Shown piece after piece: positions 76-62,357 of a DNA stretch of 64,000 nucleotides (its first letter is position 1; each line of letters opens with the position of its first letter). A program made the translations under genes and the position numbers. The notes under the pieces are model-generated. The model searched no databases, was not told the origin of the DNA, and was given only the letters and a program-made list of their open reading frames with translations. Source of the stretch: Mytilisepta virgata (lineage: Eukaryota; Mollusca; Bivalvia; Mytilida; Mytilidae); assembly GCA_028015205.1 (NCBI GenBank), contig CM051514.1, positions 34,054,150-34,118,149 of the forward strand, given 5' to 3'.

Positions 76-3000
76 GTTGGTCTCGTTCTTGTATCTTAAT
101 TTTTTTCATTTTGTTTATTATAAAAGTATACTATTAAATTTTAAAATGACAAAACACCGCTTAAAAAGCAATTAATTTTATTTTTAGAAAGTGTTTATGT
201 ATATTAACTGTTTATTCACTAGGATAAATATGACCCATTATATAAATTAAAATATATGTTATCAATCTTACTTTATTCTTTTTTGTCTAATTGGATGTTT
301 TTCTTCAGATTTAAAAAAAAACAGATCAAAATTAATTTTTTTCATCATTTTTTTTTTTGATGTCCAATTTAAATAAATCCCTCAGAACATTGCTCCTTAT
401 TAATATCATTTTAGCTGCTTTTGAACTGGAAGCCTGGTATTAATGATACTTTGATTTATGACTATGAAATTGGATTGTCTACAACTAAACACAGTCCAGC
501 TCCTGATATTGTACCTTTTACATCAGCAAATCACAACAACCATTTCAGACTGAACAATCCTGATCTACACGAAGGAGAAATATTTTACATTGTTATAAAG
601 ACTATCACTAAATCTGATGTTCAGAATATACAGGTAATTAATCTTATATCTTATATTGACCTTACTTTGTCTTAACAAATAAAAATACGAATATCATTTG
701 ATCATTTGTCATTCATAATTAGCATTTGGATTGACCATTTTTGTCGACATTTTAAAGTACTTAACAAGTTTCTTTAGTATAGAAGGAACCAATAATTTGA
801 TGATCATGTCTAATGTTAGAAAACTGCAATTTTGTTAAAAGATTTAGGCAATTACAAGTGTATCAATAAGAATTGGTCGGACATTACTCGGCACTTATCC
901 CTTCTTTTTACTTCTTCCCCTGTCTTGCCAAAGACAACGTGAGCTTTTGTCATCACTTGGCGTCCGTCCGTTAACTTTTCACATTTTAATCTTCTCCTCT
1001 GACACTACTGGGCCAAATGGAATTACATATGGCAGGAAGCATCTATATAAGATCCTTTATAAATTTTCCTCATTGGTCAATTGTTGTTTCTGATTGGCTG
1101 AGTTTTCAAAAATCTTTTTGTCTGAAACTGCTTGGCCAAATGGAACGAAACTTGACAAGAAGCATATATAGGAGGTCCTTTATACATTTTCCTCAATTCG
1201 TCTCAATCGGACTACAAATATGGCCACCATGGGCGTTCTTGTTTCTGATTCGCGGATATAAAAATCTTCTCTGAAATCGCTAAGCCAAATTGAACAAACT
1301 TGACAGGAAGCATATATGGAAGGTCCTTTATACCGTTTCCTCATTTCGTCCCGATCTCAATTTAAATATAGTCGCCATGAGCAGTTGTTTTTTTTGATTG
1401 GCTGATATGAAACAATCTTCTCCTCTGAAGTCGCAGGGCTAAATGGAACGAACCTTGGAAGGAAGCATCTATGGGAGGTCTTTACAAAGTATCCTCATTT
1501 CGTCCCGACCGGACAACAAACATGGCCATCATGGGCAATTGTTGTTTCTGATTAGCTGATATGGAAAAATCTATCACCAGGCCATTGGAACGAAACTTGA
1601 CGGGAACCATCTATGGGAGGTTCTTTACAAAGTTTCCTCATGTCGTCCCGATCGGGCAATAAACATGGCCTTCATGGAAAATTCTTGTATTTCATTCGTT
1701 GATTAAAACATTTTTTCTGGAACTGCTTGGCCAAATAGAAAGAAACTTGATAGGATGCATCTATCAGAGATTCTTCACAAAATGTCGTCATTGCGTCCCG
1801 ATTGGTCTTCAAATATGTCTGCCATGGGCAGTTCTTTTTTCTGATTGGCTGATATAAAACAATCTTCTCTTCTGAAGTCGCTGGGCGAAGTGGAACTAAG
1901 CTTGGAAGGAAGCATCTGTGGGAGGTTTTTTACATAGTTTCCTCATATCGGACAACTAACATGGCAATCATGGGCAATTCTTGTTTCTTATTGGATGATT
2001 AATTTTTTTCTCTGGAACCGCTTGGCCAAAACTGTCAGCCAAACTTGACGAGGAGCATCTATGGAAAGTCTTTTATGAAATGAATTTTTTATCCTGAATG
2101 GACAACAAGCATGGCTGCCATGGGCAATTCTTGTTTCTAATTAGCTGATATAAAGAAAAGTTCTTCTCTGAAACCGCTTGGCCAAATAGAACGAAACTTG
2201 ACTGGAAGCATCTGTGGGAATTTTTTATTACAAAAAAAGGACAAATATACCTAAGGAGCAATAAAAACATAATCCATTTGACAGACAAACCCAGGAAGAC
2301 AAATGAACAACCACAAGCACAACAAATAAACAGAGAAAACTAAAAAAAAACAATGAACAACACGAACTCCTATAAAAACCAGGAGTGAACCCAGGTGCTC
2401 CGGAAGGGTAAGCAGTTCCTGCTCCGTATACGGCACCTGTCGTGAAGTTCAACAAAGTTAATCAAATGGAAGTCACAAATCGGTGGAGTTCTCATTTTGT
2501 CCAGATCATGTGACAAACAATGGCCGCCGTAGGCAATTCTTGTTTCTAATTAGTTGATTTAAAAGAAAAATTATCTCTGAAACTGCTAAGCCAAACTTGA
2601 CAGAAAGTGTCTATGGCTTATAACAAAAATCTACAGAACCGCAGAATTGCTTGAAACCAAACATGGCCTGAACGTTCCTCATTAGGTGTCAATCCTCCAT
2701 TCAAGATGGCCACCAGCAGGGGATTTAAGTCAACATAAGACCCCATGGGAAATACATGCAACAATATTCTACAGAACTGAATTGAAGAATATGCTGATCT
2801 GTAAATAGAAGGACCTTGATGCAGAAAAAATTGGTCCCTACAAGGCTTACCACACTTCACAATGATAGTGAGAAGTGACTTCTTCGTTCCAGGTGAGCGA
2901 TAGAGGCTCGGACCTCTGAGCCACTAGTTTATTTGCCGGAGATGTTGAGATTTGTTAATTCATTCTGATATAAACATTGCATACTTTATGTACCTGTCCA

Positions 3001-6000
3001 AAATAGTTGCATTCAGACATCTGGATATTTAATTCGAATATCTTTATATAAGACCAATATGTTATTCATTCTGTCTGTTGGGTGTCTTTGGTGGATTGGT
3101 ATTTCGAGCTTTCCTGTTATATATTTTGTTGTGCCTCGCGCTCTTATACTGAAGTCTATTCTTATCTTATTTCCTTTCATGGTTGTAGTAAATTTATCTT
3201 GTATTCATTTTAATTTCCATTATGTAGAAGACGAGAACATGATATATTTTGTAGTTTCTTGATCTACCTACATGTATGTGTCACAGGTAGTCATTCCTTT
3301 GTTTAGGCCAATTAAAATTAATTGATAGATTTTCATCCCCGCCCGCCCCTCGAAAATCGTGCCCCCCGATTTTTTTTATTTTCTAAAATTTACGATTTCC
3401 GGTATCCGTGTCGATAATTTCGTTTTTTGTTAACTTCCTGTAACAATTCAACATGGTTTTCGTGATTCGACTATTTTTGTGACCTTTAGATGTCTTTTGG
3501 TCAGCTTAAGTCTGCAGAGATTGGAGTTGAAATTTCTATTGTGCATGTTTCTGGAGTAAAAACATATATAAGCCATTTTATAACGTTTACATATTAATAA
3601 CACCTTACAAAATAGTTTCATATGAAATAAAAAATAAAAAATTAAATCCTCCCACCCGCCCCATTTGTTTTCAAAAAGTTGGATGAAAATCTACTAATTA
3701 ATTTTAGTTGGCCTTAAAGAAAGATTTCAAAATCATGACCTAATTAATGATAAAAGTGCATTTGCGGTGTATATTTAAACTAATTGAATAAAAAAAAAAT
3801 AACAATTTAAAAAACCCTTGAACTTGAGATTAAATTCTCTTAACGGCTACTTTCTTCCTATAATAGGGTAAATTTGGGAAATGATATGTGAATGCTAACT
3901 CAAAATATTTGCTAAGATATCTCCACGTTATAGGCTAGCGAACAGCCTAAATATAGACATTTTATATCAGAAATAAACGCCAGTTGTACTTGTATTGTTC
4001 ATAAGCATCTAACCAGAACCGTTTTATTAAATATTATACATACTAGGCAAAAATTAAATATGCATTTTTATGAAATATTTAAAACCAATTGTTTACATAC
4101 TAGGCGAAGGTTAAATATGCATTTTTTGAAAAAAAGATTATATATGTGGACAACAAAATATACTTTTTAAAAAAATTTATTGATTACCTGGAGAAGGATC
4201 TTAGCTGTTCCGAATCATAAAGTAGGCGTGATTCTTGGAATAATTTTTGCTTAAGATTTAATTCTTGGTATAATTCCTTCGTGCGTATTCACCACTTATA
4301 CGCCTAGGTTATTTTAGATTTTTTCTTTGCTACTTAGTTAATTTAAAATTTCCCCCAATTACTGACGATATTTGCTTTTTATTCATACATGTAACTGTTT
4401 AAACATTGAACTTGAGAGTTAATCAAAAGTAACATAAGCAATTCTCATGTATTTGTTGTCGTAATCATAGAGTGTTGGACCAATAATAATAGACTCAACA
4501 GCTCCAAGATTTAATGGTTCACCAATAAATGTCTGGTTAGAGGATGACTTTCTAGTTGCAAACTGGTCCAGCGATTCTTTTTATGATGACGAAGATCCAA
4601 ATCCTCTGCTCTATGAATACAGTTTAGGTATGAAGTCTTGAAGTACTAGGATAATGTCATTTAGACCATAGATGTAATGTTCTGTTATCTAAATAGTTTA
4701 GATAATATATCAAAACACTATTTTCTGTTTACACTTTATCTAACCCAAATGAGTAAAAAATTATCACATTGTTTTGTGTTGTAAATACTTCAAGTCCTTG
4801 ATAACCACAAGACCGTTCTTCATTCCTTTGGCATTTCTACAAAGGGTGAAGAAATGGACCTTCCTGCTTTTTATTGGATTCCTAAACTACATAAGAATCC
4901 GTTTAAACAAAGGTACATTGCTGGGTCAGCTAATTGCTCTACAAAACCTCTTTCAAAGATTTTAACATCCATATTGACATGTATTAAAGAGGGCCTTCAG
5001 AATTACTGTGAAACATCATATTCCACCAGTGGCGTCAATCAGATGTGGATTCTTAAAAACTCCAAAAATTGACTTCAATATCTAAAATCAAAATCTTTGG
5101 CTACATGCAACAGCATAAAAACTTTCGACTTCTCTACACTCTACACTACCATACCACATTCTCAATTAAAAGATCGCATAAAGCAACTAGTTCATCAATG
5201 TTTTTTTCAAGAAAAATGGGACTCGCAGATATAAATTCCTTGTGCTAGGTAGAGAAAAGTCTTATTTCGTGAAGAACCACTCTGATTCTGACAAAAAGTA
5301 TTCTGAAGATGAAATTACAAACATGTTAGATTTTCTCATAGACAACATATTCGTTGAATTTGGCGGTCTAATTTTTCAACAAACAATCGGCATTCCAATG
5401 GGAACCAACTGTGCTCCTCTCCTCGCCGATCTGTTTCTGTACTCATATGAAGCGGACTTCATTCAAGGGTTACTACGTGAAAACAAAAAGAAACTAGCCC
5501 AATCCTTTAATTTCACTTTTCGTTATATAGATGATGTTTTGTCGTTAAATAACGACAAATTCCAAGACTTTCTACATCTTATCTACCCCAGTGAGCTTGA
5601 AATTAAGGATACTACAGATACACCAAAGTCCGCTTCATATTTGGATTTGTTTCTTGAAATAGACTATGAGGGACGTTTGAAGACAAAACTTTATGACAAA
5701 CGTGATGACTTCAACTTTCCTATTGTTAATTTTCCCTTCTTAAGTAGCAATATACCAGCATCGCCTGCATATGGCGTCTACGTTTCTCAGTTTATCCGGT
5801 TTTCAAGGGCATGCGTGAGTTACCCTGACTTTCGACAAATAGGATTACTGCTGTCACAAAAGCTTCTTGGCCAGGGTTTTATCAGGGATAAGTTGATGTC
5901 ATCACTTAAGAAATTTTACGGTCGTCATCCTGAATTGATTGACCCTTACAGTGTTCCAATATCTAAGATGATGTTGGACCTGTTCCCACTGTCGTAACCT

Positions 6001-13377: not shown

Positions 13378-13445
<68 letters not shown>

Positions 13446-14399
13446 GTTCTAAATTAAAACCTTGTATACAGATTATATATTAATCAAATAAATTTCCAAC
13501 ACGACTAGATTTTTCATGACTGTATTTCACTAGTACTTTCACGTCTTTCGACGATCTTCAGGTGAATAAATACAAAAGTAGCTAAGTAACGTTTATGTGA
13601 CGTTACGTTATTAGAACAACTTAGTAACGCTATGAATAGAAAGCGAAAGTATAAAAATATAAATTTAGATTTAAAAATGTTAGAACATTAATAAAATAAA
13701 TTGAATACTTTACACCACATTTGAAGCGTCTATTGACCAAAGCTAGATTTGATCCGCAACAAAACGAGGAACCAAAAGTCGTGTCTCCGTGTAAAGACAA
13801 ACGTTGTGAAACTTGCAAATACATTCATTCTGGTCCGGACATCACCACAAAAGATGGAACCAAAATTTATACAAACGCCAACATGAACTGCAAGAGCGCA
13901 AACCTTATTTACTGCATTAAATGTCCAAATTGCAATGAAATATACATCGGCCAGACAGGAAATACACTAACAAAGAGGATGACGGTGCATCGCCAACAAG
14001 TCCGCGAAGAGGCCTACAGACAAATTCCACTGAGTGCCCATATAGAAACTTGTGGAGGTGGAAATTTTTTTATTTTTCCTTTCTTCAAAATGAAGCAAGA
14101 AAGTGAATCTTTAAGGGAAATTAAAGAAAGAAATTTTATTAAAAAATTTAAGGCAGTGTTGAACGGACATTAAAGTATTCAATTTATGTTATTAATGTTC
14201 TAACATTTTTAAATCTAAATTTATATTTTTATACTTTCGCTTTCTATTTATAGCGTTACTAAGTTGTTCTAATAACGTAACGTCACATAAACGTTACTTA
14301 GCTACTTTTGTATTTATTCACCTGAAGATCGTCGAAAGACGTGAAAGTACTAGTGAAATACAGTCATGAAAAATCTAGTCGTGTTGGAAATTTATTTGA

Positions 14400-14449
<50 letters not shown>

Positions 14450-35400: not shown

Positions 35401-38400
35401 TCAAACATTGGTATCATCAAATGGTATTACCGTTGATTCATCGCCTCCTGTTGCTGGTATTGTGTATGATGGTATAGGTAATTGGATTTTTTAATTGGTG
35501 GCAATTAGTATTTGAATTTTTCTCAGGTATTTAAAAATGTTTTTATTGCATGCATTTGCATACAAAATCTTTGTTAAATAAGTAAATATATTACCGGGTA
35601 ATTGTATTGATTACATGCCATAATATAGCCATTATTTCAATGTGTTGAAGCATAAAATACATGTAAAGGTCTCTAAAGGGAGGAGAATTAATGGATTTGA
35701 TACAACATCCAAACCAGCCAAACATGACAATTGAAATTTTCTGACGTACATGTACATGTATGTAATATCAGTAATTTAATTTATGGCAAATGCAAATGGA
35801 ATCGTTTAATAAGGATAACTTGGCTGACTTTAAAGTCAGCCATTCCTGAATAATTTTTTTTTATGTTAGACAAACTTCCTTAGCTCTGTGTTATACTTGA
35901 AACCCATGAATCAGCATTTTAGCACAGAATTGACAATTAAAGCTAAAACCAACCTCCTTCTATTATCCCATGATATTAAAATAGCTGGCGCAGTCAAAAT
36001 GGTGGTATAATAATATAGAATTGCCTTTGCGTCATTGCAGGATTACACGATTTGGAATTTCAAAATAAATCTGATATCATATCTGCCAATTGGCATGGGT
36101 TCACGGATAATGGGTGTAGTATTATCCGATATCATTGGTGTGTTGGTGATGACCTGGCAGAAAATGTTTGCAATGTGTTGGATTGGACAGATGTAGGGAT
36201 GCATACCCGTGTGTCAACAAAACTCCCGACACATATTCCGAATGGTAAATAGTAACTGTTGAGCTGTGTTGCACACCTATTCAAGCATATAATATAAATT
36301 GAAATTTACTTTATTTATGTTATGAAAGAATCACTTTTGTCAAAAAGAGTCATTGTTTTGCCTCGGATTTAATTTCAATCCTGAAGGAGAATGGATGTAC
36401 ATTTTTTGGACGTTAAATTCATAATTCCGAAAATACTGCATGAAAAGCATGATTGTTTTTAAATTTTCTTGTTACTACCACAGCTTAGATTGTCTAAACG
36501 GGTTAACTTCTACATCTATTTCAAATACATGTTGTTTTGATGTAATTTTTATATGACGCTCACCTTGAATCAATAAAAATAAGTTTGAGTTGTTTTTCTT
36601 TCTTTTTTTTGTATTTTCGTTACGAAAGGTTTTGTATATCCGATAGGTTTATATAATTAAAATAAAGCATTCATTTCTTTTAGGATCCAGGTTGTACAAT
36701 AAAATTAATGCTGACGATAGTGTCGGTCACACTTCATCAATAGTTACTTCAGATGGAGTTACAATCGACATAACGGCTCCTGTCCCTGTAAAAATCGAAC
36801 CCTCTAACGAAAATCTAGTAATGAATCCATCTTTTGAAAATACTGGAGGAAGTTATTTGCCTTTTACAAACATTTCGTCTTCTTCACTTTGTTCAAATGA
36901 CATTTCTGTAATGCCAGAATCCTGGTATAAAAGTTATGATGATGACTGTATTGCAACTTTAAGGTCTGACGTGAACACAGCTTATAAAGGCAGATCATTT
37001 GTTTTCATTCGGGGAAAAATACACCAAACAATAAAAGGTATGATACCAGGAGAAGTATATAGGATATCATTTGTAACTAGCCACGCGCCTCAAGTAAGTA
37101 GTATTTTATCTAATACGGAGGGAATTGTGACATTTGGAGACGTGGAACATATATTTCTCATATATACTAAAGATCGGAAGCATGGAGAAGTATCTAGTAA
37201 TATATTTTGGCATCAACAGTCATTTAATTTTAAAGCAATGAAAGAGAATATAAATATATCCATTGGGAATTTAGACAGCAACATAGGACTTCTTGTTGAT
37301 TATATTCGCATTCAAAAAATGGACAAAGTAACCAGCGACACAAATAAAGTTATTCATGTTAACACAGTAGATTTACATCAGTGGTCTTCAATCCATGCAG
37401 CCTGGTATTTTGAAGATTCAGAGAGTCCTATTGTAGAATATCTATGGGCAATCGGTAAGTTTTATTCTGTAACAAATTCCGTAAATGGATAACATCATGA
37501 TGTATTCAAATTCAATGAATTCACAGTTGTGATATACAAATACAAGAGCAATAAACATTTTGTGTAATTGTTGGTTTTGTTTTCAACATTTTAGGCGTTG
37601 GGTAGAACTGATGAGTCGTAAATCGACAAAATATTCACATATTGTGCATCCGAATTGTTATCAAATAAGTGAAGTCAAGAAATACCAAAGGGGTATTCGA
37701 AGGAGGGAAAAATCGAAAACAACTGACAAACTCCTGAGAACAACGAAGACAAGACCAACACAATACAAACACTACACTTAAAAACATATGAAAAACATGG
37801 ACCCCACCAAAAAACAAGGGGTAGACTCAGGTGCTCCAGAAGAGTAAGCAGTCTAAGAGTTTCACATCCGTTAAAAGGCTACATGTATCATTGTTTGATT
37901 TGTTTTATTAAATATTTACTCATATTTCATTTTATCATAAAATTCTCATTGTCTTCAGTTATTTCCGTAGTACTTATCTTTCGACTGAAACTAAAACTAA
38001 AACAAAATGTATAGAAAATATGTGCATTAAGATTTCAAAATTTGTACTGTCTGGCTATAAATATAATAATATACATGTGCGTTATATATTGAGCATTGAT
38101 TTAAAATATTTGGATAAAAGAATGATTTACCTTCAAAGAGTATTTTCGCCAAAAGATTTCATGTATCCCATAATGTTAATGTTCTATCAATACAATTGTA
38201 AGGCAGTTCAGTTTTTTTTTAATCACAAATCATAAAAAAGAAGCTACAGAAAACAATAATTATGATTTTTTTCTGCAGTTATAACTTTGACAGACTGGTA
38301 TACAGAGCTCAGTTTTAAACCTCTAATATAATTCTTTAGTGTTCTGATACCGTTTTAATATTTCTTAAGGAAATAAGATAAGACTTGCACCATTTTTTAA

Positions 38401-41400
38401 ATTTAATAATGCTCAGTTGGTTTGTTTTGTCTTTTATTGTCTCATTACATCTAGAATGTCCCCATGGTTTGAGCTGTAAATCCATAGTTTTAACAGTTCT
38501 GTACGCGAATTCGAGATGCGGGATAATACAATGTTCATACCTTGCAGGATCTTTTGTGATAAACCATAACAGCATTTATGATTGCAATATTCTACGTTAA
38601 TTGTAAACACTTCTATTATTATTCGTTGATAGGCTATACAGAAGGAAGTACCGAAATACAGGGCTTTACAAGTGTAGGCGTAAACACGTTTGGTTTTAAT
38701 TATAACGTAACGCTTATTCATTCTTCTACAATACATGTAACAGTGGTTGCTGTCAATGCAGCTGGACTAAGTGCAAAGTCACACTCGACCAGTTTCTTTG
38801 TTGATTTAACACCACCAGAAATACTGTATGTCAATGATGGAACAGGTATGTTATCATTATGGCAATTGTATGAGAAGGACATATGTAACTGAACAAGTAC
38901 GTTCGAACTTCAGTAGTGCCGGTTTCTCGAACACCTATTTCTTGAAAAAGTCAAACAAAAACTGTGGTCATGACAATGATAAAATTGTGATTTTGATAGA
39001 AATTCATAATTTATAAACTTTAAATTTCAATACAGGTATAAATAACACAAGACAAAACGATTTTTTTATAAGATATTGTGTAAGTAAACCCTACATAATG
39101 TATACCTTTTGTCTTTGTTACAAGGTTCAGAGGTAGATGGTCAGGTCTCTAATGTTATATCAACAAATTGGAATGCAAGAGATCCTGATTCTGAGATTGA
39201 GTTTTGTGAATGGTCAGTTGGTAAGTAAGCAATCAGGGGCGTTTCCAGGATATTTGAAAGGGGGGCGTACAATAAACGTTTGGCCGAGTGGAGCGAGGCG
39301 AAAAATTTTTTGGACCTTTTTTTGCTAAAACACACAAAATAATTGTGAAGTGCACTAATGTAACGGTTCCTGACTTGCTTTAAAAAGAAATTAGAGTATA
39401 TGTTTAATTAATGAATATGATAAATTGCCATAATCAATACAATATAAGGAGATTACGATAGTTTTTTGTTTTTTTTTAAAAGGGGGGGGGGCGTACGCCC
39501 ATTACGCCCTCACCTGGACCCGCCCCTGGCAATGATTTTGATGTTAAAATATTCAACCAACAATGTTTTGAAATTAAGGATACTACAGATACATCAAAGT
39601 CCGCTTCATATTTGGATTTGTTTCTCGAAATAGACAATGAGGGACATCTGAAGACAAAACTTTATGACAAACGTGATGACTTCGACTTTCCTATTGTTAA
39701 ATTTCCCTTCTTGAGTGGCAATATACCAGCATCGCCTGCAAATGAGCTTTAACGTTTCTCAGCTTATCCGATATTCAAGGGCATACATGTGTTACCATGA
39801 CTTTCGACAAAGAGGATTACTGCTGTCACAAAAGCTTCTTAACTAGGGTTTTATCAGGGATAAGTGGATGTGATCACTTAGGAAATTTTACGGTCGTCAT
39901 CACGAATTGATTGACCGTTACTGTGTTCCAATATCTAAGATGATGTTTGACCTGTTCACACTGTCGTAACATTTCAGTTTACCCCTGGTTTTTTTTTATA
40001 GGAGTTTGTGTTGTTCATTGTTTTTTAGTTTTCAGTGTTTATTTGTTGTGCTTGTGGTTGTTCATTTGTCTTCCCGGGTTTTGTCTGTCTAATGTTTCTC
40101 TTTTTGGTTTGCTCCTTCGGTATATTTGTCCTCTTTTTTTAAATCAAGTTTTATAATAGGATCAAGGCATATAATGGATATATTATCGTCTCAAAATCTA
40201 TGTGAAGGGAATATATCTTCGCTATGTTACGTGTAATTAGAAAACATTTGTTTACAAAGAAATATTTAAGACATAGGATTTACATTTACATTTCTATCTA
40301 AATAAAATCTGAGAAAAAACATTTCTTAAAATGGAAAGCTCAGGGATCAGTAGACCAAATTAAGACATACTTCACAGTATATTTTTGGTTTGCTTTAAAT
40401 TCCTACCTCAAGTACATTTGAGAAACTGTTTTCAAAACTAGTATCAAAGAATTTTAATTTTATCAGGTCAAAACTTTTACGCTACTCATCACGAATCAAG
40501 CAGTATCTTAAAAAAGATACTGAACTTTGGTATACATTTTACATGAATTTTATTTTTTATGAGCTTTTTAAATTACTTTTTCATTTATTGTTGTTTATAT
40601 TTCAGGTTTTCAACCTTACGGTAATGAACTATTGGAATTTACAAAAACGGCTGATACGAGTCACGCATCAGCTAAATTTCATACTACAGATGTGTCAGGG
40701 AGAAAGGTTTACGTTACCATTCGCTGTCATAACTCTGCAGGGTTACATGTCACAGCATCTTCAGATGGAGTTGTAGTCTCGGATGTCCCCCCGTCATCAG
40801 AGCATGCTGTTGTAGAAATAATACCGAGATCATTGACAGAGTATACACCTAGAAATTTAAATCAAGGAGATAATAAATCTATACGGATGAAATGGTCAGG
40901 ATTTTTTGATACGTTTGGCGTAATGTCTTTCAATGTAAGATAGCATACTATAAAATCTAGGAAACATTTTACCAGAATGACACTCTATCCTAAAATTTTA
41001 ATGATTTTAAATTAATATTCCTTATATAAAATATCTAGATAATTTGTACTCTGTAGAGCATAAAAACAATTATCCCTTGGTAAATATTTTGATGTTAATG
41101 ATTGTTAAATAATATTGTTATACAATACATTTACTTCCAAAGAAATAGTTCTCACCATTCCAAATTTTATGACTGAAACAAGAAAGTTGAACAGTAGTTT
41201 TTAGTACGGAGGAAATTTAACACATCTTCGTCTACAAAATTTAAAAATGTTATGATGATTCCATTGGTTTTGTACAGAAAGTTGGGTGGGAATAAATGGT
41301 TCTTAACGAGAACTGGTCACTTGCCAGTATAAAATAATTTTCTGAACACATAATTATATCACATTCCATATCTTAAGAATTTCTATTATCATTTTTAAAT

Positions 41401-43495
41401 TAATAAAATTATCTAAATATGTTCATAAACTGAAATCTCAAGAATTTTTATTATGTTCACAGGTGAAACTGGCTGGGAAAAACAAAAAAGTTACGACCAA
41501 TATACTTAATACAAACAATGGTGTAACACATTTATCAATGACGGGTCTTAACTTACCAGATGATATTTATACGGCAGATGTCACTGCTGTAAACTCAATG
41601 TATCTCAGAAGTACTGATGTATCTTCAAATATGACAATATATACCTCTCCTGTTTTAGTTACTGGTATGTTGAGTATATTTGAATTTCTAAACTAAACAC
41701 GCATAAAATTATTTGTGAGAATATGGCTTACCTTCCCGATCCCTACATGTCACTTTTAGATGTTATAGAAGTTGTTTATGACCATATGGGCATCAAGATT
41801 TTTCAAAAATTATGTCATATTTTTTCAAGTTTCTTCTTTCTATTGATACCATACAGAGCCTTAAATTGTGTTCAATCCTTTTTCGCATAATAAAGCAAAC
41901 ATCGGTAAAATAACATATTTATTATTGTTTGATAAATTTGTATCAATCATCTGCAACGTTTCTGTGGAACTAAAAAGTTTTAATAAAAGAACGGATCTCT
42001 TTTCGAAAGACCTATAATTACTGTGACAATGAAGTAAAGTCGAGAAATGCCAAAGGGATATTCGGAGGAGGGGGAAATTGAAAACAACTGACAAACTCCG
42101 GCGAACAACGAAGACAAGACCAAAACAATACAAACATTACACTTAAAAACTAAAAACATATGAACAATATGGACCCCACAAAAAACCGGGGGTAGACTCG
42201 GGTGACCCTGAAGAGTAAGCAGTCTCGGCTTCCTGCAGGACACCCGCCATGCTGTCCATGTCACATCTGGTATGAGGAAGGTACAACATCAACTGAATAG
42301 GTCCATTTTCATTTGGGAAACGGTTTTTCCATACATGTCAACCAAGTCATGATGACGTTCATAAAACTTTAATAAGGATGACTGCAACTTAGGAGAAACA
42401 TGCCCCTGAAGATATTTTCATGTCATTACATAGTGTCTTACATGTAATTTGTTTTGCCCAATTGCACTTTTTTTCAATCCGAAATGGTAAAAATACAAAA
42501 GAGCAATTTTATTCTAAAATTTGATACGTAATTATGTACATTACATGTTTTGAGTTTGCCTACTCTCAGATTAAAAAAAGTTTTTTTGAAAATAAAATAA
42601 CTTGAATCCAATTAAATAAAACAGTAAAAAATCTAACAATCTAACAATTCGGTTCATATTTTTATATAAAAAACAAGACCAAAACCGGATCTGGACCTGC
42701 GTCGCAGCATGGAATTCATTGATCAGCTGCACGACAGATCCCAAAATTGCTTTCACACTACAACAAAACATTATCAAGCTGCAGACAACACATAAAACAA
42801 TTCCCTTTTGTAGAAGCCAAGAAAACTTTCACAGAATTTTTTCTGGTGTTTTGAGTATTGTTGAATTTTAAACTATCGGAAAACAGGATGTGGCTGCACA
42901 ACAGATCCAAAAATAGCGTACACGCTACAACTCAACATTATCAAGCTGCAGACAAAATATAAAACCATTCCCTTTTGTAGAATCAAGAAAACGTTCACGA
43001 ACTTTTTTGTAGTATTTTTTTTTGTTGAATGTTTATCGGCAAACAGATCCAAAAATTGCTTACACGCTACAACTCAACATTATGAAGCTGCAGACAAAAT
43101 ATATAATCATTCCCCTACGTAGAAGCCAAGAAGACTGACGAAAGTTCCCTACCCACAATCTCTCGGACGGACGGTAAAAAGATGTGTTATTATTTATTTG
43201 TTTGTACTGTCTCTTCAAAGGTATTGGAGTATCTATAAGTAACAGAGATGGAATTATCTTTGTGAGTTGGAAAGGATGTTTTCAGTATCCAGGACACCTG
43301 ATGTATGAAGTATCTGTAGGATCAAGTGCGGGAGGCGCTGACGTTATACAATGGCAAGAAACATTAAATGATTTCATGGAACTTCAAATACCTGATAAAT
43401 TCAAGGATAAATCGGATCTTACGTTATACTTCTATATTAATGGTATAGGAGACAATGGGGAAAATACATTTTTAAAGGCTGACATCTCAGTTTAA
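1..43495 (+). CDS. Giant Fn3-like repeat extracellular protein, 3' part of gene (overall entry; exons listed separately)
   Basis: Thirty-six exons (415-633 to 43221-43495), each with AG acceptor and GT donor (one GC donor), join phase-consistently into 7,140 nt ending in TAA at 43493-43495. The product shows about 19 units of roughly 100 residues. Each has a core Trp before a 'GF.D..SGI..Y' segment, a 'YyvtV.a.N.AG' strand and a 'DGV.vD.tPP..G' linker, which is fibronectin type III-like topology. A Cys-rich module and a galactose-binding-like module are inserted. The last exon ends in DISV with no membrane segment, so a secreted or matrix role is inferred. The 5' end and signal peptide lie outside the window. 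No specific function or symbol is recognised; Pfam may score these repeats poorly. Introns carry most of the window's mobile elements. Confidence 0.85.
76..414 (+). other. Intron, AT-rich
   Basis: No repeat or clear exon seen. It should contain a linker exon of length 2 mod 3, or that exon has been lost; a possible acceptor lies at 186-187. Confidence 0.4.
415..633 (+). CDS. Exon 2, Fn3-like unit 1
   Basis: Phase 0 in, 0 out. It begins LLLNWKPGINDTLIYDYEIG, with the core Trp and the Y.y.iG strand, and ends with FYIVIKTITKSDVQNIQ before GTAATT. The acceptor is a TTTTAG. Confidence 0.8.
900..2960 (+). repeat. Dispersed bivalve-type repeat with internal ~150-bp tandem units
   Basis: About ten diverged units carry 'GGAAGCATCTATGGGAGG' and 'TGGCCACCATGGGC' motifs, near 1037, 1158, 1308, 1460, 1605, 1753, 1908, 2051, 2204 and 2600. 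Spacing is mostly 145-155 bp. The block opens with 'GTGAGCTTTTGTCATCACTTGG' -like sequence and closes with 'AGGTGAGCGATAGAGGCTC'. The same ends recur at 24190-24680 (inverted) and 32915-34365. The class is unknown to me. A PLE tail is inserted at 2222-2482. Confidence 0.7.
2222..2482 (-). mobile_element. Penelope-like element 3' tail, family A, inverted
   Basis: This is the reverse complement of the tail at about 6010-6270 (from the CCACCGATTTGTGACTTCC side to the AAAGGACAAATATACC side). Only the non-coding tail is present, so it is a 5'-truncated insertion. It interrupts the ~150-bp tandem array, which resumes near 2490. Confidence 0.8.
2961..3302. other. Intronic stretch without recognised feature
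   Basis: T-rich sequence with no splice-compatible exon or recognisable repeat. Confidence 0.4.
3306..3713. mobile_element. PIF/Harbinger-like MITE, 408 bp
   Basis: Terminal inverted repeats start GGCCAATTAAAATTAATT on the left; the right end reads GGCCAACTAAAATTAATT on the opposite strand. They are flanked by TTA at 3303-3305 and 3714-3716. A 3-bp TWA target duplication with GGCC termini is the PIF/Harbinger signature. No ORF. Confidence 0.8.
3717..4470. repeat. AT-rich intron with a short direct repeat
   Basis: A ~30-bp motif containing 'CATACTAGGC' and 'TTAAATATGCATTTTT' occurs twice, near 4040 and 4097. Nothing else is recognised up to the exon at 4471. Confidence 0.5.
4471..4627 (+). 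CDS. Exon 3, linker and start of Fn3-like unit 2
   Basis: Phase 0 in, 1 out. It reads SVGPIIIDSTAPRFNG (the D.TAP linker), then LVANWSSDSF with the core Trp, ending LLYEYSL plus one base before GTATGA. Confidence 0.85.
4790..6280 (+). pseudogene. Penelope-like retroelement (family A), reverse transcriptase, broken
   Basis: Reverse-transcriptase blocks run in order: FYWIPKLHKNPFKQRYIAG near 4873; KTFDFSTLYTTIPH (catalytic Asp block) near 5118; IGIPMGTNCAPLLADLFLYS near 5389; FRYIDDVLSL (YIDD active site) near 5518; and a thumb region ending DLFPLS at 5997. The reading is broken by a TGA at 5070-5072 and by one extra T in the T run at 5201-5207, so this copy is dead. No GIY-YIG domain follows. 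A ~270-bp non-coding tail ends near 6280. The copy lies wholly within the intron between exons 3 and 4. The RT type resembles Penelope-like elements; a related EN-lacking lineage is possible. Confidence 0.85.
6281..6630. other. Intronic stretch without recognised feature
   Basis: AT-rich; open frames here are short and without recognisable motifs. Confidence 0.4.
6636..6870. mobile_element. Foldback MITE-like inverted repeat
   Basis: Left arm (about 6636-6710, with AAAACCAAATACAAATA and AAAAGTAAAAATT) is complementary to the right arm (about 6793-6870, with TATTTGGTTTT and AATTTTTACTTTTAAC). The arms are ~75 bp and the spacer ~80 bp. It ends about 28 bp before an acceptor. Ends and target duplication are unresolved. 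Confidence 0.6.
6899..7179 (+). CDS. Exon 4, rest of Fn3-like unit 2 and linker
   Basis: Phase 1 in, 0 out. It starts GHCEYSTDV across the junction, includes DYYVTIKVTNLAGLSIAATS, and ends PVAGVVYDIDP..SDIFE before GTGCGT. Confidence 0.85.
7328..8163. mobile_element. Candidate non-autonomous DNA transposon with ~27-bp inverted ends
   Basis: The left end TGAACGTGTAATGCCCCAAA matches the reverse complement of the right end (TGAACGTGTAACGCACCAAA). Subterminal regions on both sides are rich in GCGT/CGTG words. Target duplication and superfamily are not resolved. Confidence 0.55.
8185..8345 (+). repeat. Degenerate tRNA-derived SINE fragment
   Basis: The region resembles the SINE at 44436-44701: AGATTGGTCTAGTTAGTTC (A-box region), then TTCTACCGAAGATCGG against TCCTACCGAAGGTCGG and CACTCCGGATTCATC against TACTCCGGCTTCCTC. 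Confidence 0.6.
8346..9219. repeat. Intron end with short dispersed duplications
   Basis: 'ATACTATTCTTTGATA' -like text occurs near 8575 and again near 8910, each followed by '..GATGCATAAGATGTG' -like sequence, suggesting a degraded repeat. Otherwise nothing is recognised. Confidence 0.35.
9220..9420 (+). CDS. Exon 5, Fn3-like unit 3
   Basis: Phase 0 in, 0 out, exactly 67 codons. It contains LDSLAVKWTPFYHP (core Trp) and LHYKICVGTMIGYCDV, then a GTATAT donor. The intron that follows (9421-10302) is AT-rich and otherwise featureless. Confidence 0.85.
10303..10429 (+). CDS. Exon 6, last strand of unit 3 and linker
   Basis: Phase 0 in, 1 out. It reads KYFIMVEGVSKAGNVSISTD then GVTVLDNKTQ..RINDGHNVT. 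Confidence 0.85.
11065..11311. repeat. ~250-bp dispersed repeat, copy 1
   Basis: Nearly identical to 16036-16286. It starts ATTTAGATGGTAGGATGAAT and ends CAATGTTGATTTACAATAAA. No inverted ends are evident; the class is unknown. The rest of the intron (10430-11447) is AT-rich. Confidence 0.8.
11448..11482 (+). CDS. Exon 7, 35-nt micro-exon
   Basis: The acceptor CTTTCTTTTAG and donor GTAAAT bracket 35 nt coding (E)NVKLKNSHHDM. It is the only way found to carry phase 1 from exon 6 to phase 0 at exon 8, and it keeps the frame open. Confidence 0.7.
11483..11917. other. Intron 7, no recognised feature
   Basis: An open frame of 105 codons (11543-11860) shows no Fn3-like motif and no fitting splice phase, so it was not annotated. 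Confidence 0.4.
11918..12062 (+). CDS. Exon 8, Fn3-like unit 4
   Basis: Phase 0 in, 1 out. It reads NVAPAYLDEDIDFQ, then TLEAYWKIPSSYSDI with the core Trp, ending KKSPVG. Confidence 0.8.
12063..12463. other. Intron 8, no recognised feature
   Basis: AT-rich sequence without recognisable repeat. Confidence 0.4.
12464..12678 (+). CDS. Exon 9, rest of unit 4 and linker
   Basis: Phase 1 in, 0 out. GITYRIKVKVCAGRICF gives the Y.i.V..C strand; the linker is KPVTGGMVVDLYTGK before GTAAGA. Confidence 0.85.
12679..13131. other. Intron 9, no recognised feature
   Basis: Short open frames only. 'GTTTTTTGCTCTTTTATG' -like text resembles tails of dispersed repeats elsewhere in the window but could not be aligned confidently. 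Confidence 0.35.
13132..13293 (+). CDS. Exon 10, Fn3-like unit 5
   Basis: Phase 0 in, 0 out, 54 codons. It starts IVVTIERMYDPDIEDEQ and includes VDTYEWSITDNN. The donor is GTTAGT after NNTH. Confidence 0.8.
13381..13443. repeat. (TA)n microsatellite
   Basis: About 31 TA dinucleotides, directly upstream of the GIY-YIG element. Confidence 0.95.
13481..14403 (+). mobile_element. PLE-derived element: GIY-YIG endonuclease ORF between inverted ~232-bp repeats
   Basis: The left arm 13481-13712 is the near-perfect reverse complement of the right arm 14171-14403. Between them lies one ORF. TA microsatellites flank both sides (13381-13443; about 14402-14440). Penelope-like elements are known to have direct or inverted terminal repeats and a GIY-YIG nuclease. 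Here the reverse transcriptase is missing, so this is an internally deleted PLE or a foldback derivative. Confidence 0.85.
13721..14173 (+). CDS. GIY-YIG endonuclease fragment of Penelope-like element
   Basis: Uninterrupted, about 150 codons; the start is not an ATG, so it is the C-terminal part of a larger ancestral ORF. It shows a Cys cluster (CKDKRCETCKYIHSG), then IYCIKCPNCNEIYIGQTGNT, the GIY-YIG core with the CxxC of PLE nucleases. Next come LTKRMTVHRQQV (catalytic Arg/His region) and ESESLREIKERNFIKKF (Glu region). It ends at 14171-14173, at the edge of the right inverted arm. Its open state suggests a fairly recent insertion. Expected role in the family: nicking target DNA for element insertion. 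Confidence 0.85.
   Translation: MKRLLTKARFDPQQNEEPKVVSPCKDKRCETCKYIHSGPDITTKDGTKIYTNANMNCKSANLIYCIKCPNCNEIYIGQTGNTLTKRMTVHRQQVREEAYRQIPLSAHIETCGGGNFFIFPFFKMKQESESLREIKERNFIKKFKAVLNGH
14403..14440. repeat. (TA)n microsatellite with short TG run
   Basis: A TA run then GTGTGTGTGACTAATAC. The word GACTAATA occurs at both ends of this run (14398 and 14449), a possible duplication at the element border. Confidence 0.9.
14770..14965 (+). CDS. Exon 11, rest of unit 5
   Basis: Phase 0 in, 1 out. LFVRGINKAGVSAEVSADI gives the N.AG strand. The acceptor is TTTTTTGCAG, the donor GTATAT. Confidence 0.85.
15296..16470 (-). pseudogene. Penelope-like element, family B, RT part and tail, with a nested insertion
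   Basis: On the minus strand: IPMGTNCAP..LFLYSYKADF near 16400-16340, then FNFSFRYIDDM (YIDD active site) near 16030-15990, then LEIKDNSDT and SNIPET..YGVNISQL to about 15740. A non-coding tail follows to 15296 with 'ACCCCACCAAAAACCGGGGG' on the plus strand. The coding part is split at 16036-16286 by an unrelated repeat. It is a 5'-truncated, dead copy. Confidence 0.85.
16036..16286. repeat. ~250-bp dispersed repeat, copy 2, nested in PLE
   Basis: Copy of 11065-11311 lying exactly between the 'ADFMDGLL' and 'FRYIDDM' parts of the minus-strand reverse transcriptase. It is therefore a true insertion, younger than that PLE copy. Confidence 0.85.
16471..16745 (-). repeat. Inverted copy of the repeat at 24030-24190
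   Basis: Contains TCTATACAGTATTGTCATAC and GATGCATAGGGATACAGCAT, the reverse complement of text near 24030-24190 ('..CTGTATAGAAAT..', 'TGTATCCCTGTGCATC'). Confidence 0.7.
16822..17064 (+). CDS. Exon 12, Fn3-like unit 6
   Basis: Phase 1 in, 1 out. It reads DHEYGKGIDYTSNTDWTEPD, then SFVWGVIEVLANSAERYY, with Cys in DPCSHPDVISCGYT. The donor GTAATA is chosen over read-through because it restores phase with exon 13. Confidence 0.75.
17150..17300. repeat. Dispersed repeat, copy 1 (partner 26500-26710)
   Basis: Both copies have 'CTGTACCAA.TC.GACTATCC', 'TTGATTGATTG' and 'TATGTCATTGTTGACCTTTC' followed by 'CCATTTTGTT'. It resembles the 3' region of an unclassified bivalve repeat. Confidence 0.7.
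17301..17879. other. Intron 12, remainder
   Basis: AT-rich, nothing recognised. Confidence 0.4.
17880..18100 (+). CDS. Exon 13, rest of unit 6 and canonical linker
   Basis: Phase 1 in, 0 out. GHRYIVCVHAQQ gives the late strand. SDGVTVDLTPPSPGNVWIG is the clearest example of the linker shared by the units. Confidence 0.9.
18121..18330 (+). repeat. Duplicated intron segment A with relic exon
   Basis: Matches 25675-25880 along its length. At 18221-18291, after an AAATTATAG acceptor, it reads EFIVNWEQCYSNFHQSTC then YVAEK, an Fn3-like strand with a Trp, before AAG/GTTGCT. The phase does not fit exon 13 or 14 and a stop follows, so it is a relic rather than an exon of this transcript. Confidence 0.65.
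18331..18834. other. Intron 13, remainder
   Basis: No repeat or exon recognised. Confidence 0.4.
18835..18940 (+). CDS. Exon 14, Fn3-like unit 7 start
   Basis: Phase 0 in, 1 out. TSSTDLYVIWDSFLDVEEHD carries the core Trp; it ends GIAKYEISV with donor GTAAGG. Confidence 0.85.
18941..19266. other. Intron 14, no recognised feature
   Basis: AT-rich. Confidence 0.4.
19267..19383 (+). CDS. Exon 15, middle of unit 7
   Basis: Phase 1 in, 1 out. GSTEDGVDIIDHMN, then DLRLQNGHYYYTKIT, the Y-rich strand preceding a GTACTA donor. Confidence 0.85.
19384..20154. other. Intron 15, no recognised feature
   Basis: Contains small open frames but no recognisable motif or repeat. Confidence 0.4.
20155..20290 (+). 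CDS. Exon 16, end of unit 7 and linker
   Basis: Phase 1 in, 2 out. AYDFLNRSTSVKADAVKID then ITSPEITE, ending LSEIFA and a split Cys codon. Confidence 0.8.
20600..21250 (+). repeat. Dispersed repeat, reference (uninterrupted) copy
   Basis: Homologous to 56820-58335: TTGACGTCAAACAATAGGAA, CATTACTATGACGT, 'GTAAGGGGCATCTCC', 'GATAATTACGTAG', 'TAGCATGGATTATTTACC'. It lacks both insertions present in the other copy and so shows the empty sites. Confidence 0.8.
21863..22215 (+). repeat. tRNA-derived SINE
   Basis: The pol III A box region GTGGTTTAGTGGTCAGCGC and B box TAGTTCGATTCCCG are about 50 bp apart. A body follows with CTTGCTGTCCCGTGTTAAGG and CTTAGCACGTTAAAGA, typical of metazoan/mollusc SINE cores, ending near CCACTATAAATAGATAAG. 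The anticodon stem no longer folds as a functional tRNA. Confidence 0.8.
22216..22940. other. Intron 16 sequence of unknown type
   Basis: Includes a palindrome ACGATAACTCTTATCGT near 22382; otherwise unassigned. Confidence 0.35.
23440..23620 (+). CDS. Exon 17, Fn3-like unit 8
   Basis: Phase 2 in, 0 out. WTDVFIDKESGISYYNWGIG is a textbook core segment of these units. It then reads YEGQDDVLSF and ends GHSYIITIK before GTAAGA. Confidence 0.9.
24030..25380 (+). repeat. Compound repeat with ~148-bp tandem units
   Basis: Units carry 'TTTTTGAAAATCAAAATTCTAAAACCTTA..CATCTA..ACAGT.TGTGACAATACTGTATA' style text, starting near 24110, 24730, 24900, 25055 and 25200, and 'GAGTTTAGGTCACAAG'. The block ends with 'GGACAGACGGACAGAGG'. 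A member of the 900-2960 family lies inverted inside it (24190-24680). Confidence 0.7.
24190..24680 (-). repeat. Inverted member of the 900-2960 / 32915-34365 repeat family
   Basis: Reverse-complement ends: 'GAGGCTCTCAAGAACCTG..CGCTCACCTGG' at the left and 'ACGCCAAGTGATGAGAATAG' with 'CTCACTTGACC' at the right. Confidence 0.7.
25675..25880 (+). repeat. Duplicated intron segment B with dead relic exon
   Basis: Copy of 18121-18330. The relic exon (25775-25838) now has TGA where copy A has the Trp codon, and a 7-bp loss, so it cannot code. Confidence 0.65.
25967..26243 (+). CDS. Exon 18, linker and Fn3-like unit 9
   Basis: Phase 0 in, 1 out. GFNNAGLVAMTSS, linker QPVAGRVYDGHPDVVS, then NNLSAHWEGFHDPHTVIKNY and FVHIGTCRGCDDVL. 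Confidence 0.9.
26500..26710. repeat. Dispersed repeat, copy 2 (partner 17150-17300)
   Basis: Shares TATGTCATTGTTGACCTTTC and the preceding pyrimidine-rich text with 17150-17300. Confidence 0.7.
26839..27025 (+). CDS. Exon 19, end of unit 9 and linker
   Basis: Phase 1 in, 2 out. SGFKYYTTVTACNTADMC, then SDGVLIDNSPPTDGLVQDGT, ending in a split Arg codon before GTGAGA. Confidence 0.9.
27154..27359 (+). CDS. Exon 20, Fn3-like unit 10
   Basis: Phase 2 in, 1 out; the preceding intron is only 128 bp. ITAKWHGFVDSQSGIDRYV and IRAGTIPGLDDLV, ending NRIYITVRAYNKA. This is the most complete single-exon Fn3-like unit. Confidence 0.9.
27480..27690 (-). mobile_element. Retroelement tail related to the PLE families
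   Basis: Ends with TAGGTGCTCCGGAAGGGTAA, shared with PLE tails at 2222-2482 and 15296-15480. The upstream part differs, so this is a third tail family. No coding part is present. Confidence 0.6.
27691..28565. other. Intron 20, remainder
   Basis: AT-rich; nothing recognised. Confidence 0.4.
28566..28798 (+). CDS. Exon 21, linker and Fn3-like unit 11
   Basis: Phase 1 in, 0 out. ATSNGFLIDTSAPFILQEPT linker, then VLKVEWTVEDKESFIERQY with the core Trp. Confidence 0.85.
28990..29143 (+). CDS. Exon 22, end of unit 11
   Basis: Phase 0 in, 1 out. YTGLDLHDGGIYSVKIIVCN, then KILVDSSPPTP at the GTACGT donor. Confidence 0.9.
29620..30168 (-). mobile_element. Possible solo LTR
   Basis: On the minus strand the block starts TGTGGCC and ends CCGTAACA (TG..CA). 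It has TATATATACGGACG as a possible TATA region and an AATAAA-like run near the end. An internal ~33-bp direct duplication (TAACGTAAATAAAAGTGTGT twice, 29850-29905) is visible. No clear target duplication was found, so the class is tentative. Confidence 0.4.
30238..30416 (+). CDS. Exon 23, Fn3-like unit 12, GC donor
   Basis: Phase 1 in, 0 out. LHICWLGFSDVHSGIDSYFV and SVGMEYMADDLNK. It ends AAG followed by GCATGT. Only a GC donor keeps the frame open into exon 24; the nearby GT would give a stop. Confidence 0.75.
30488..30665 (-). mobile_element. PLE family B tail fragment
   Basis: Shares 'GTCAAGAAATATCAAAGGG', 'AACAACGAAGACAAGACC' and 'ACCGGGGGTAGACTCAGG' with 15296-15470 and 42032-42210. 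Tail only. Confidence 0.75.
30666..31071. other. Intron 23, remainder
   Basis: Nothing recognised. Confidence 0.4.
31072..31215 (+). CDS. Exon 24, end of unit 12
   Basis: Phase 0 in, 0 out, 48 codons. IPGKPMQFYHNESSIHY, ending YQHIFISVWAVNK before GTAAAT. Confidence 0.85.
31216..31611. other. Intron 24, no recognised feature
   Basis: AT-rich. Confidence 0.4.
31612..31780 (+). CDS. Exon 25, cysteine-rich module
   Basis: Phase 0 in, 1 out. VGLWSSMIHSQFQLIPGG, then RRCSALSCIGHCVCSPRNSH and CSLNGDICND. Six Cys within 26 residues suggest a small disulfide-bonded knot, unlike the neighbouring Fn3-like units. Confidence 0.85.
32062..32203 (+). CDS. Exon 26, Fn3-like unit 13, first half
   Basis: Phase 1 in, 2 out. 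LTSHTADGVKFTPSNCFLAA then QWKIVRNQGLKPK and a Trp codon split by the intron. The preceding intron 31781-32061 is unremarkable. Confidence 0.85.
32517..32638 (+). CDS. Exon 27, unit 13 continued
   Basis: Phase 2 in, 1 out. WYEWSVGLTSKGKPEGI, ending TEAVYNLKK before GTACCA. Confidence 0.85.
32639..32914. other. Intron 27, first part
   Basis: AT-rich, no feature. Confidence 0.4.
32915..34365 (+). repeat. Dispersed bivalve-type repeat, long member
   Basis: Begins like the 900-2960 family (GTGAGCTATTGCCATCACTT) and ends 'AACAGGTGAGCGATTCAGGC'. Inside, a ~400-bp block occurs twice (about 33000-33340 and 33420-33850; shared 'CCTGAATTGTTAATTTTAA'). It is followed by four ~110-bp units with 'TCCATAGCAACC' (33890-34240). 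Confidence 0.75.
34410..34549 (+). CDS. Exon 28, end of unit 13
   Basis: Phase 1 in, 0 out. MVTYSVFVRVWYDNNIYAVF, then ITVLSSPPVVNDLQGVN before GTGAGT. Confidence 0.85.
34785..34935 (+). CDS. Exon 29, Fn3-like unit 14
   Basis: Phase 0 in, 1 out. GSLFEVSWKNVFLSMKNSI and FHVYLSTFPG. The acceptor AATTATAAAG is weak but required by phase. Confidence 0.75.
34936..35273. other. Intron 29, no recognised feature
   Basis: AT-rich. Confidence 0.4.
35274..35477 (+). CDS. Exon 30, end of unit 14 and linker
   Basis: Phase 1 in, 1 out. LDMKPGVRYYSNVLVSTFSG, then NGITVDSSPPVAGIVYDGI. Confidence 0.9.
35478..36040. other. Intron 30, no recognised feature
   Basis: Contains a short inverted repeat TGACTTTAAAGTCA near 35828; otherwise nothing. 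Confidence 0.4.
36041..36244 (+). CDS. Exon 31, Fn3-like unit 15
   Basis: Phase 1 in, 1 out. DIISANWHGFTDNGCSIIRY, HWCVGDDLAENVC, ending LPTHIPN. Confidence 0.9.
36245..36683. other. Intron 31, no recognised feature
   Basis: AT-rich with a T-rich tract before the next acceptor. Confidence 0.4.
36684..37454 (+). CDS. Exon 32: linker, galactose-binding/DUF642-like domain, start of unit 16
   Basis: At 771 nt this is by far the largest exon. It starts with the end of unit 15 (TSDGVTIDITAPVPVKIEP). Then, from 36812 to 37319 (~169 residues), it has NLVMNPSFENTGG, ESWYKSYDDDC, GRSFVFIRGKIHQTIKGMIP, GEVYRISFVTSHAPQ and GLLVDYIRIQK. The 'NL..NPSFE..W', 'G.i.Q.i.G..Y.iSF.t' and closing 'vDyi.i' pattern is that of DUF642/CBM-type galactose-binding jelly rolls. 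After it, IHAAWYFEDSESPIVEYLWA begins unit 16. Sugar binding is inferred from the fold pattern only. Confidence 0.85.
37455..37671. other. Intron 32, first part
   Basis: No feature recognised. Confidence 0.4.
37672..37858 (-). mobile_element. PLE family B tail fragment
   Basis: Shares 'GTCAAGAAATACCAAAGGGG', 'ACATGGACCCCACCAAAAAA' and 'GTAGACTCAGGTGCTCC' with the other family B tails. Confidence 0.75.
37859..38632. other. Intron 32, remainder
   Basis: Several overlapping short open frames on both strands, none with recognisable motifs. Confidence 0.4.
38633..38845 (+). CDS. Exon 33, rest of unit 16 and linker
   Basis: Phase 1 in, 1 out. TIHVTVVAVNAAGLSAKSHS, then FFVDLTPPEILYVNDGT before GTATGT. 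Confidence 0.9.
39125..39220 (+). CDS. Exon 34, Fn3-like unit 17 start
   Basis: Phase 1 in, 1 out. VISTNWNARDPDSEIEFCEW then SV and donor GTAAGT. Confidence 0.9.
39232..39531. mobile_element. hAT-like MITE, ~300 bp
   Basis: Termini CAGGGGCGTTTCCAGG and, on the other strand at the right end, CAGGGGCGGGTCCAGG. They are flanked by GCAAT on both sides, a possible 5-bp target duplication. CAGGGGCGG..CCAGG ends are typical of hAT-type MITEs, whose duplications are usually 8 bp. A related inner part recurs at 45262-45440. Confidence 0.7.
39564..40150 (+). pseudogene. Penelope-like element family A, 5'-truncated dead copy
   Basis: Matches 5599-6275: ASYLDLFLEID and TKLYDKRDDF remain readable, then stops follow (TAA near 39749). 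About 110 bp of the tail is deleted near 39976 relative to the longer copy. Confidence 0.85.
40606..40934 (+). CDS. Exon 35, rest of unit 17, linker, start of unit 18
   Basis: Phase 1 in, 0 out. RKVYVTIRCHNSAGLHVTAS, SDGVVVSDVPPSSEHAV, then SIRMKWSGFFDTFGVMSFN. Confidence 0.9.
40935..41462. other. Intron 35, no recognised feature
   Basis: AT-rich. Confidence 0.4.
41463..41664 (+). CDS. Exon 36, end of unit 18
   Basis: Phase 0 in, 1 out. LNLPDDIYTADVTAVNSMYL, then MTIYTSPVLVT before GTATGT. Confidence 0.85.
42032..42404 (-). mobile_element. PLE family B tail fragment, longest tail-only copy
   Basis: Aligns with 15296-15660: 'AAAACCGGGGGTAGACTC', 'TTCCTGCAGGACACCCGCCA', 'TTTCATTTGGGAAACGG' and 'GTCAACCAAGTCATGATG'. 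Confidence 0.8.
42690..43165. repeat. Three ~150-bp tandem units
   Basis: Each unit has 'ACAGATCC.AAAAT.GC', 'ACACGCTACAACTCAACATT' and 'AAGCTGCAGACAAAATATA' text, near 42735, 42905 and 43030. It ends 'CTCGGACGGACGG'. Confidence 0.8.
43221..43495 (+). CDS. Exon 37, terminal exon, Fn3-like unit 19
   Basis: Phase 1 in, stop TAA at 43493-43495. GIIFVSWKGCFQYPGHLMYE, VSVGSSAGGADVIQW, SDLTLYFYINGIGDNG, end LKADISV. No hydrophobic C-terminal segment, so no membrane anchor is visible. Confidence 0.9.
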
Positions 43496-60824: not shown

Positions 60825-60833
60825 TATTATATA

Positions 60834-62357
<1,524 letters not shown>

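Follow-up and report, generated by a model that had tools for sequence, protein, structure and literature searches.

In long repeat proteins, repeats are often gained, lost and shuffled. Plant DUF642 proteins are short, and the DUF642 fold is a jelly roll as in carbohydrate-binding modules. For plant members, an interaction with cell wall polysaccharides has been described (PMC9029284), and among the large multidomain matrix proteins of animals the bilaterian mega-thrombospondins are described as typically containing a fibronectin type III (Fn3) domain (PMC6526912). Here we analysed a stretch of 64,000 nucleotides from the mussel Mytilisepta virgata (contig CM051514.1 of assembly GCA_028015205.1, positions 34,054,150 to 34,118,149 of the forward strand; called the window below). 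It carries a gene that almost certainly belongs to an old, unnamed animal family of giant proteins with Fn3-like units in a fixed order. Mussels, starfish and lancelets share the order of these units, and a sponge shares part of it.

The window has an AT content of 68%. An exon finder combining a codon score, generic splice weights and phase chained 44 candidate exons between base 1 and 43495 of the + strand, and the spliced product edited from this chain was used as query in a homologue search that returned 151 proteins. The top homologue was P0001 (Mytilus californianus LOC127731085, 3,457 amino acids) with 57% identity over 100% of the query. Its spliced alignment to the window consisted of 40 segments, three of them tiny (0, 3 and 15 nucleotides), and dropping these left 37 exons. 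The final chain comprises 7,215 nucleotides and encodes 2,404 amino acids with the sole stop codon at its end; 35 of the introns are GT-AG and one is GC-AG (19 in phase 1, 14 in phase 0 and three in phase 2). Exons 2 to 37 alone give exactly the 36 exons and 2,379 residues that a preliminary description of this DNA had traced from 415 to 43495. Position 415 itself had to be given up as the beginning, since the exon at 1-75 precedes it and the remaining 5´ part is located outside the window. The alignment spans residues 1064 to 3453 of the 3,457 residues of P0001, thus 1,063 P0001 residues are not represented in the window, and the position of the stop (43495) fits the end of P0001. The window appears to hold roughly the C-terminal two thirds of the gene, and the size of P0001 suggests a protein of about 3,450 residues.

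After the tiny segments had been dropped, the join from 30420 to 31079 resulted in a stop codon. A GC donor after 30416 together with an acceptor before 31072 gives an open join, which showed the best fit to P0001 among the joins tried (score of 390 versus 363 with the 15-nucleotide segment; nine open direct joins were found). The GC donor is needed at this join of exons 23 and 24 because the GT donor four bases downstream would yield a stop codon, and the intron 30417-31071 seems to use it. The join of exon 11 to exon 12 remains open. The need for a GC donor next to a stop-generating GT donor is what speaks for a pseudogene or a chance chain of open frames, an explanation that we find hardly credible: once the GC donor is used, all 2,404 codons are open and in phase, as the preliminary description had claimed for its chain, and the spliced alignment scored 7,580, with the controls at 151 (reverse strand), 200 (reversed protein), 213 (shuffled protein) and 1,022 (part of a bacterial Fn3 array). 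When 208 family proteins served as tblastn queries, all but one of the 6,096 matches (6,095) fell on the chain, and the remaining one overlaps an exon edge. This search matched 35 of the 37 exons, leaving those at 1-75 and 11448-11482 without a match, and it revealed no second copy of the gene between 43.5 and 64 kb on either strand.

Cutting the visible part at 18 linkers picked by eye resulted in 19 units, and the agreement with the earlier estimate of about 19 rests on this choice of linkers. For each returned protein, the diagonal test determined whether the best score of each unit fell on the unit at the same place. It counted the 231 of 258 proteins that had at least 14 units of usable length (27 were uncounted). 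Both order tests and the tree described below were run on an earlier spliced model, which has 2,409 residues and includes two tiny segments of doubtful status (6 residues), instead of the final 2,404. On the diagonal, 148 of the 231 proteins had at least 80% of their units, 14 were located between and 69 were under 35%. The top group contains molluscs, annelids (Owenia, Ridgeia), a nemertean (Lineus), echinoderms, hemichordates and lancelets, together with P0100 and P0254. Bacterial, cnidarian and some other animal Fn3 proteins are found in the low group, which serves as a built-in control (Schekmanbacteria P0132 1/18, Armatimonadota P0134 2/18, Actinia P0142 3/18 and Amphiura P0185 0/19).

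A second test, which used no unit boundaries in the target, took the best match of each unit anywhere in the target protein. All 19 units followed in increasing order in starfish P0055, lancelet P0061, acorn worm P0121, crinoid P0127, nemertean P0131 and annelid P0090, and 17 of 19 in P0100. Five controls reached 6 or 7 of 19, and random order gave a mean of 6.4 and a maximum of 11 in 2,000. Sponge protein P0125 from Sycon was in order in 12/19 units when compared from the lancelet, 13/19 from the starfish, 16/19 from the acorn worm and 16/18 from P0100 (controls 4 to 8); we read it as a family member with faster change. Scores of units at the same position had medians of 161 to 219 for P0090, P0131, P0055, P0121 and P0061, compared with a median of 36 for different units of the window against each other, and a recent tandem duplication of the units was rejected on these values.

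Identity of the window product to P0001, P0002, P0004 and P0093 (M. californianus, M. coruscus and M. edulis) amounts to 55 to 62%, and these four share 86 to 92% identity with each other. The window product therefore belongs to a different genus, probably a mytilid one, or is a paralogue of this group. The homologue searches found the family in mussels, oysters, other bivalves and gastropods, and the same order beyond the molluscs. The suggestion of the preliminary description that the protein may be lineage-specific was thus rejected, since homologues occur across molluscs, annelids, a nemertean, echinoderms, hemichordates and lancelets; its failure to recognise a named family agrees with the records of the relatives, most of which are uncharacterized.

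In a tree built with FastTree from 56 sequences over 2,313 columns, the window adjoins P0001 (support 1.000) and P0100 adjoins Sycon (0.998). Gastropods, bivalves, echinoderms and hemichordates largely group together. Partial collinearity, with 7 to 15 of 18 or 19 units in place, was seen for P0111, P0112, P0116, P0117, P0119, P0136-P0141, P0147 and P0148. Their hosts include Lingula, gastropods and bivalves, and the nine of them placed in the tree are found on deeper branches. These proteins are perhaps an old sister family.

Several observations weigh against a single old family of fixed unit order. Compared directly with the window, Sycon P0125 has only 10/19 units in order, which is within the reach of chance (maximum 11 in 2,000), and control P0132 reached 6/18 when compared from P0100. 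One pair of window units scores 156, showing that the units are not all equally individual. The tree places the annelid Ridgeia among deuterostomes (with weak support) and the lancelet copies in two places, unlike the species tree, and the two Lingula proteins P0111 and P0112, with 13 and 14 of 19 units in place, are located on a deeper branch. Furthermore, the matches listed (best 120 of 151, 105 of 105, and best 120 of 212) contained no vertebrate, tunicate, arthropod or nematode members; these protein searches need shared five-residue words, and one scored only candidates sharing most words, so that the lack of such rows is a lead about loss, not proof.

As to the folds, the preliminary description had proposed Fn3-like beta-sandwich units, and structure prediction for the product of exon 20 gave a partial Fn3 sandwich, in line with this proposal. 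The whole-protein score for fn3 (PF00041) exceeds the cut-off in the relatives P0011, P0054, P0078, P0121, P0125, P0230 and P0248, with no single stretch passing. Unit 13 contains the cysteine-rich insert, whose cysteine pattern is present in 96 of the 99 collinear relatives having this unit. The module in exon 32, which is part of unit 16, has a predicted jelly-roll fold resembling carbohydrate-binding modules (CBM4, 16, 22, 61), and its motif and length are kept in 86 of 97 relatives. For DUF642 (PF04862, cut-off 27), Solemya P0248 reached 27.8 bits and lancelet P0230 26.5 bits. A PDB sequence search with the jelly-roll exon gave no match. NCBIfam assigned no family to P0001 and P0061, and to P0100 only choice_anch_C, far below the cut-off.

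The extreme N-terminal head varies between relatives. In P0001 it is a C-type lectin domain; brittle star P0078 carries SRCR domains, acorn worm P0121 TSP1, abalone P0054 TSP1 together with PLAT, and Sycon P0125 dermatopontin and Sushi; the N-terminus of P0011 looks EMI-like when its sequence is read by eye. Conserved columns in a 22-row alignment (A1) start well before the portion present in the window, thus the body that follows the head is common to the relatives. Such heads belong to families that are used in immune recognition, and the giant Fn3 family is expanded, with at least seven LOC names in M. galloprovincialis among the matches listed. Both points would suit a soluble humoral recognition protein of animals without adaptive immunity, in which microbes would be bound by an exchangeable head (lectin, SRCR or TSP1) and the long body would act as spacer and partner platform. 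A plain spacer would not need 19 units in constant order across phyla, and we consider this role rather unlikely.

In a crude hydropathy scan, 95 of 100 collinear relatives lacked an internal membrane-like stretch, and a single relative had a borderline one in its last 150 residues. The protein is probably secreted, as read from the N-terminal starts of relatives. It is very improbable that the array is the ectodomain of a polycystin-like membrane receptor: this was suggested by one model, P0104 (M. galloprovincialis 'polycystin 2'), in which family Fn3 units (9/13 in place) are followed by a polycystin channel, and it is contradicted by the hydropathy scan. P0104 breaks off inside the array, suggesting that two neighbouring genes were fused in the annotation. 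The visible chain in the window terminates in an Fn3-like unit and shows no polycystin channel with membrane helices.

On balance we lean towards a scaffold. The body would be a rod of Fn3-like units in a fixed, non-interchangeable order, with the cysteine-rich insert and a single DUF642-like jelly roll near the C-terminus as parts of the rod. The protein would be secreted into extracellular matrix, cuticle or mucus, where it might bind glycans via the jelly roll and, where present, a lectin-like head, and present partners in register along the rod. Such a register of binding sites would explain the unchanged order of units. What was observed is the gene structure, the family membership, the unit order, the predicted jelly roll, the variable heads and that a membrane anchor is mostly lacking. 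The weakest step is the glycan role, which is proposed by analogy with what is described for plant DUF642 proteins (PMC9029284).

Some of the data count against the scaffold. The fn3 profile gave no row for the eight window products scanned nor for P0001, and the window exon scores 21.2 bits for DUF642, below the cut-off. The same lists of fold matches include bacterial toxin and cyclase domains with a jelly roll; a shared predicted fold of this kind does not establish sugar binding. The N-terminal cysteine-rich region and the head of the window gene fall to the left of base 1, and an N-terminal hydrophobic stretch was flagged in only a minority of the 100 relatives, whose models in many cases begin within the gene.

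The many copies in bivalves could also point to a structural role in hard or fibrous products, for example shell matrix, byssus or periostracum; a paper on pearl-oyster shell matrix reportedly contains the words fibronectin type III (PMC4660305). Lancelets, acorn worms and starfish, which are not known to make any of these products, have the same fixed-order protein, and this makes such a function improbable.

Possibly, and this we put forward quite tentatively, the scaffold would be a founding animal matrix protein: a secreted rod exceeding 3,000 residues, which acquired its bead order before sponges split off and kept it in many marine invertebrates, whose head was exchanged by lineage and which was lost or changed past recognition in vertebrates, arthropods and nematodes. 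If this is true, the fixed order means that the whole rod acts as a single register, a kind of molecular ruler, rather than as a string of equal beads. Repeats spanning about 2,300 residues, in constant order from molluscs to starfish and lancelets and to some extent in a sponge, together with a possible recognition end that is swapped, point to a large, old and unstudied component of the animal extracellular matrix, for which oysters, mussels, scallops and starfish are tractable. The family is thus a test case for what keeps repeat order fixed.

Table 1. Exons of the visible chain and the module in exon 32. EF, exon finder; SA, spliced alignment of P0001; n/208, family proteins with a tblastn match.
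Feature	Coordinates	Strand	Basis and remarks
Exon 1 of visible part	1..75	+	EF, SA; no tblastn match alone; gene 5´ end outside window
Exon 2	415..633	+	EF, SA; 96/208
Exon 3	4471..4627	+	EF, SA; 77/208
Exon 4	6899..7179	+	EF, SA; 142/208
Exon 5	9220..9420	+	EF, SA; 77/208
Exon 6	10303..10429	+	EF, SA; 31/208
Exon 7 (35 nt, least certain)	11448..11482	+	EF, SA only; no tblastn match alone
Exon 8	11918..12062	+	EF, SA; 34/208
Exon 9	12464..12678	+	EF, SA; 75/208
Exon 10	13132..13293	+	EF, SA; 49/208
Exon 11	14770..14965	+	EF, SA; 61/208
Exon 12	16822..17064	+	SA; 112/208
Exon 13	17880..18100	+	SA; 127/208
Exon 14	18835..18940	+	EF, SA; 100/208
Exon 15	19267..19383	+	EF, SA; 92/208
Exon 16	20155..20290	+	EF, SA; 33/208
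Exon 17	23440..23620	+	EF, SA; 134/208
Exon 18	25967..26243	+	EF, SA; 197/208
Exon 19	26839..27025	+	EF, SA; 193/208
Exon 20 (most of one Fn3-like unit, predicted partial Fn3 sandwich)	27154..27359	+	EF, SA; 188/208
Exon 21	28566..28798	+	EF, SA; 126/208
Exon 22	28990..29143	+	EF, SA; 152/208
Exon 23 (GC donor follows)	30238..30416	+	SA gave 30238-30420, end revised; 119/208
Exon 24	31072..31215	+	EF, SA gave 31079-31215, start revised; 52/208
Exon 25 (cysteine-rich EGF-like insert)	31612..31780	+	EF, SA; 107/208
Exon 26	32062..32203	+	EF, SA; 30/208
Exon 27	32517..32638	+	SA; 68/208
Exon 28	34410..34549	+	EF, SA; 90/208
Exon 29	34785..34935	+	EF, SA; 65/208
Exon 30	35274..35477	+	EF, SA; 170/208
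Exon 31	36041..36244	+	EF, SA; 161/208
Exon 32 (771 nt; unit linker, DUF642-like module, first half of next Fn3 unit)	36684..37454	+	EF, SA; 112/208
DUF642-like / carbohydrate-binding-module-like jelly roll (predicted)	36797..37330	+	Model residues 38-215 of exon 32 product
Exon 33	38633..38845	+	EF, SA; 170/208
Exon 34	39125..39220	+	EF, SA; 21/208
Exon 35	40606..40934	+	EF, SA; 171/208
Exon 36	41463..41664	+	EF, SA; 17/208
Exon 37 (last, with stop codon)	43221..43495	+	EF to stop, SA to 43474; 82/208

Downstream of the chain, a further exon at 46210-46462 (+) was considered and rejected: it has a good acceptor, no match to a family protein and only weak Pfam rows, and this open frame is possibly an exon of another gene. 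The introns contain a weak reverse transcriptase match at 5191-5997 (+) (RVT_1, E value 0.0038, below the cut-off) and a GIY-YIG endonuclease match at 13700-14173 (+) (E value 1.3e-8), which together resemble a Penelope-type element. Retroelement pieces that look similar by eye are located at 15639-16439 (-) and 39480-39966 (+). Intronic tandem repeats are present at 1084-2219 (about 150 bases) and 24707-25330 (about 158 bases), and a long dinucleotide microsatellite with the consensus TA at 60821-60990. No RNA families were found in the window at the gathering threshold.

Searches of open-access papers by locus names, by topic and by DUF642 with Fn3 and molluscs yielded no paper on the giant Fn3 family. 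Public records list the family proteins mostly as uncharacterized; some lancelet entries are named, for example, ADGRL2 or SCARF2, names that in our view do not fit the giant Fn3 family. Contactins, DCC/neogenin, fibronectin, tenascin and titin have the Fn3 fold in common with it, with a weak profile match to titin and contactins, and no DUF642-like module is known in any of these proteins. Mega-thrombospondins differ in belonging to the thrombospondin superfamily, and the portion of the source that we drew on describes no long Fn3 array for them (PMC6526912). The plant cell wall DUF642 proteins belong to the same domain family as the window module, with family scores that reach the Pfam cut-off or fall slightly short of it; here DUF642 is one module within a giant animal protein. 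CBM4, 16, 22 and 61 show 13 to 18% identity to the window jelly roll, and the resemblance is one of predicted fold. Unit order, cysteine-rich insert and jelly roll are all shared between the window product and uncharacterized giants such as P0001 and its relatives in oysters, starfish and lancelets.
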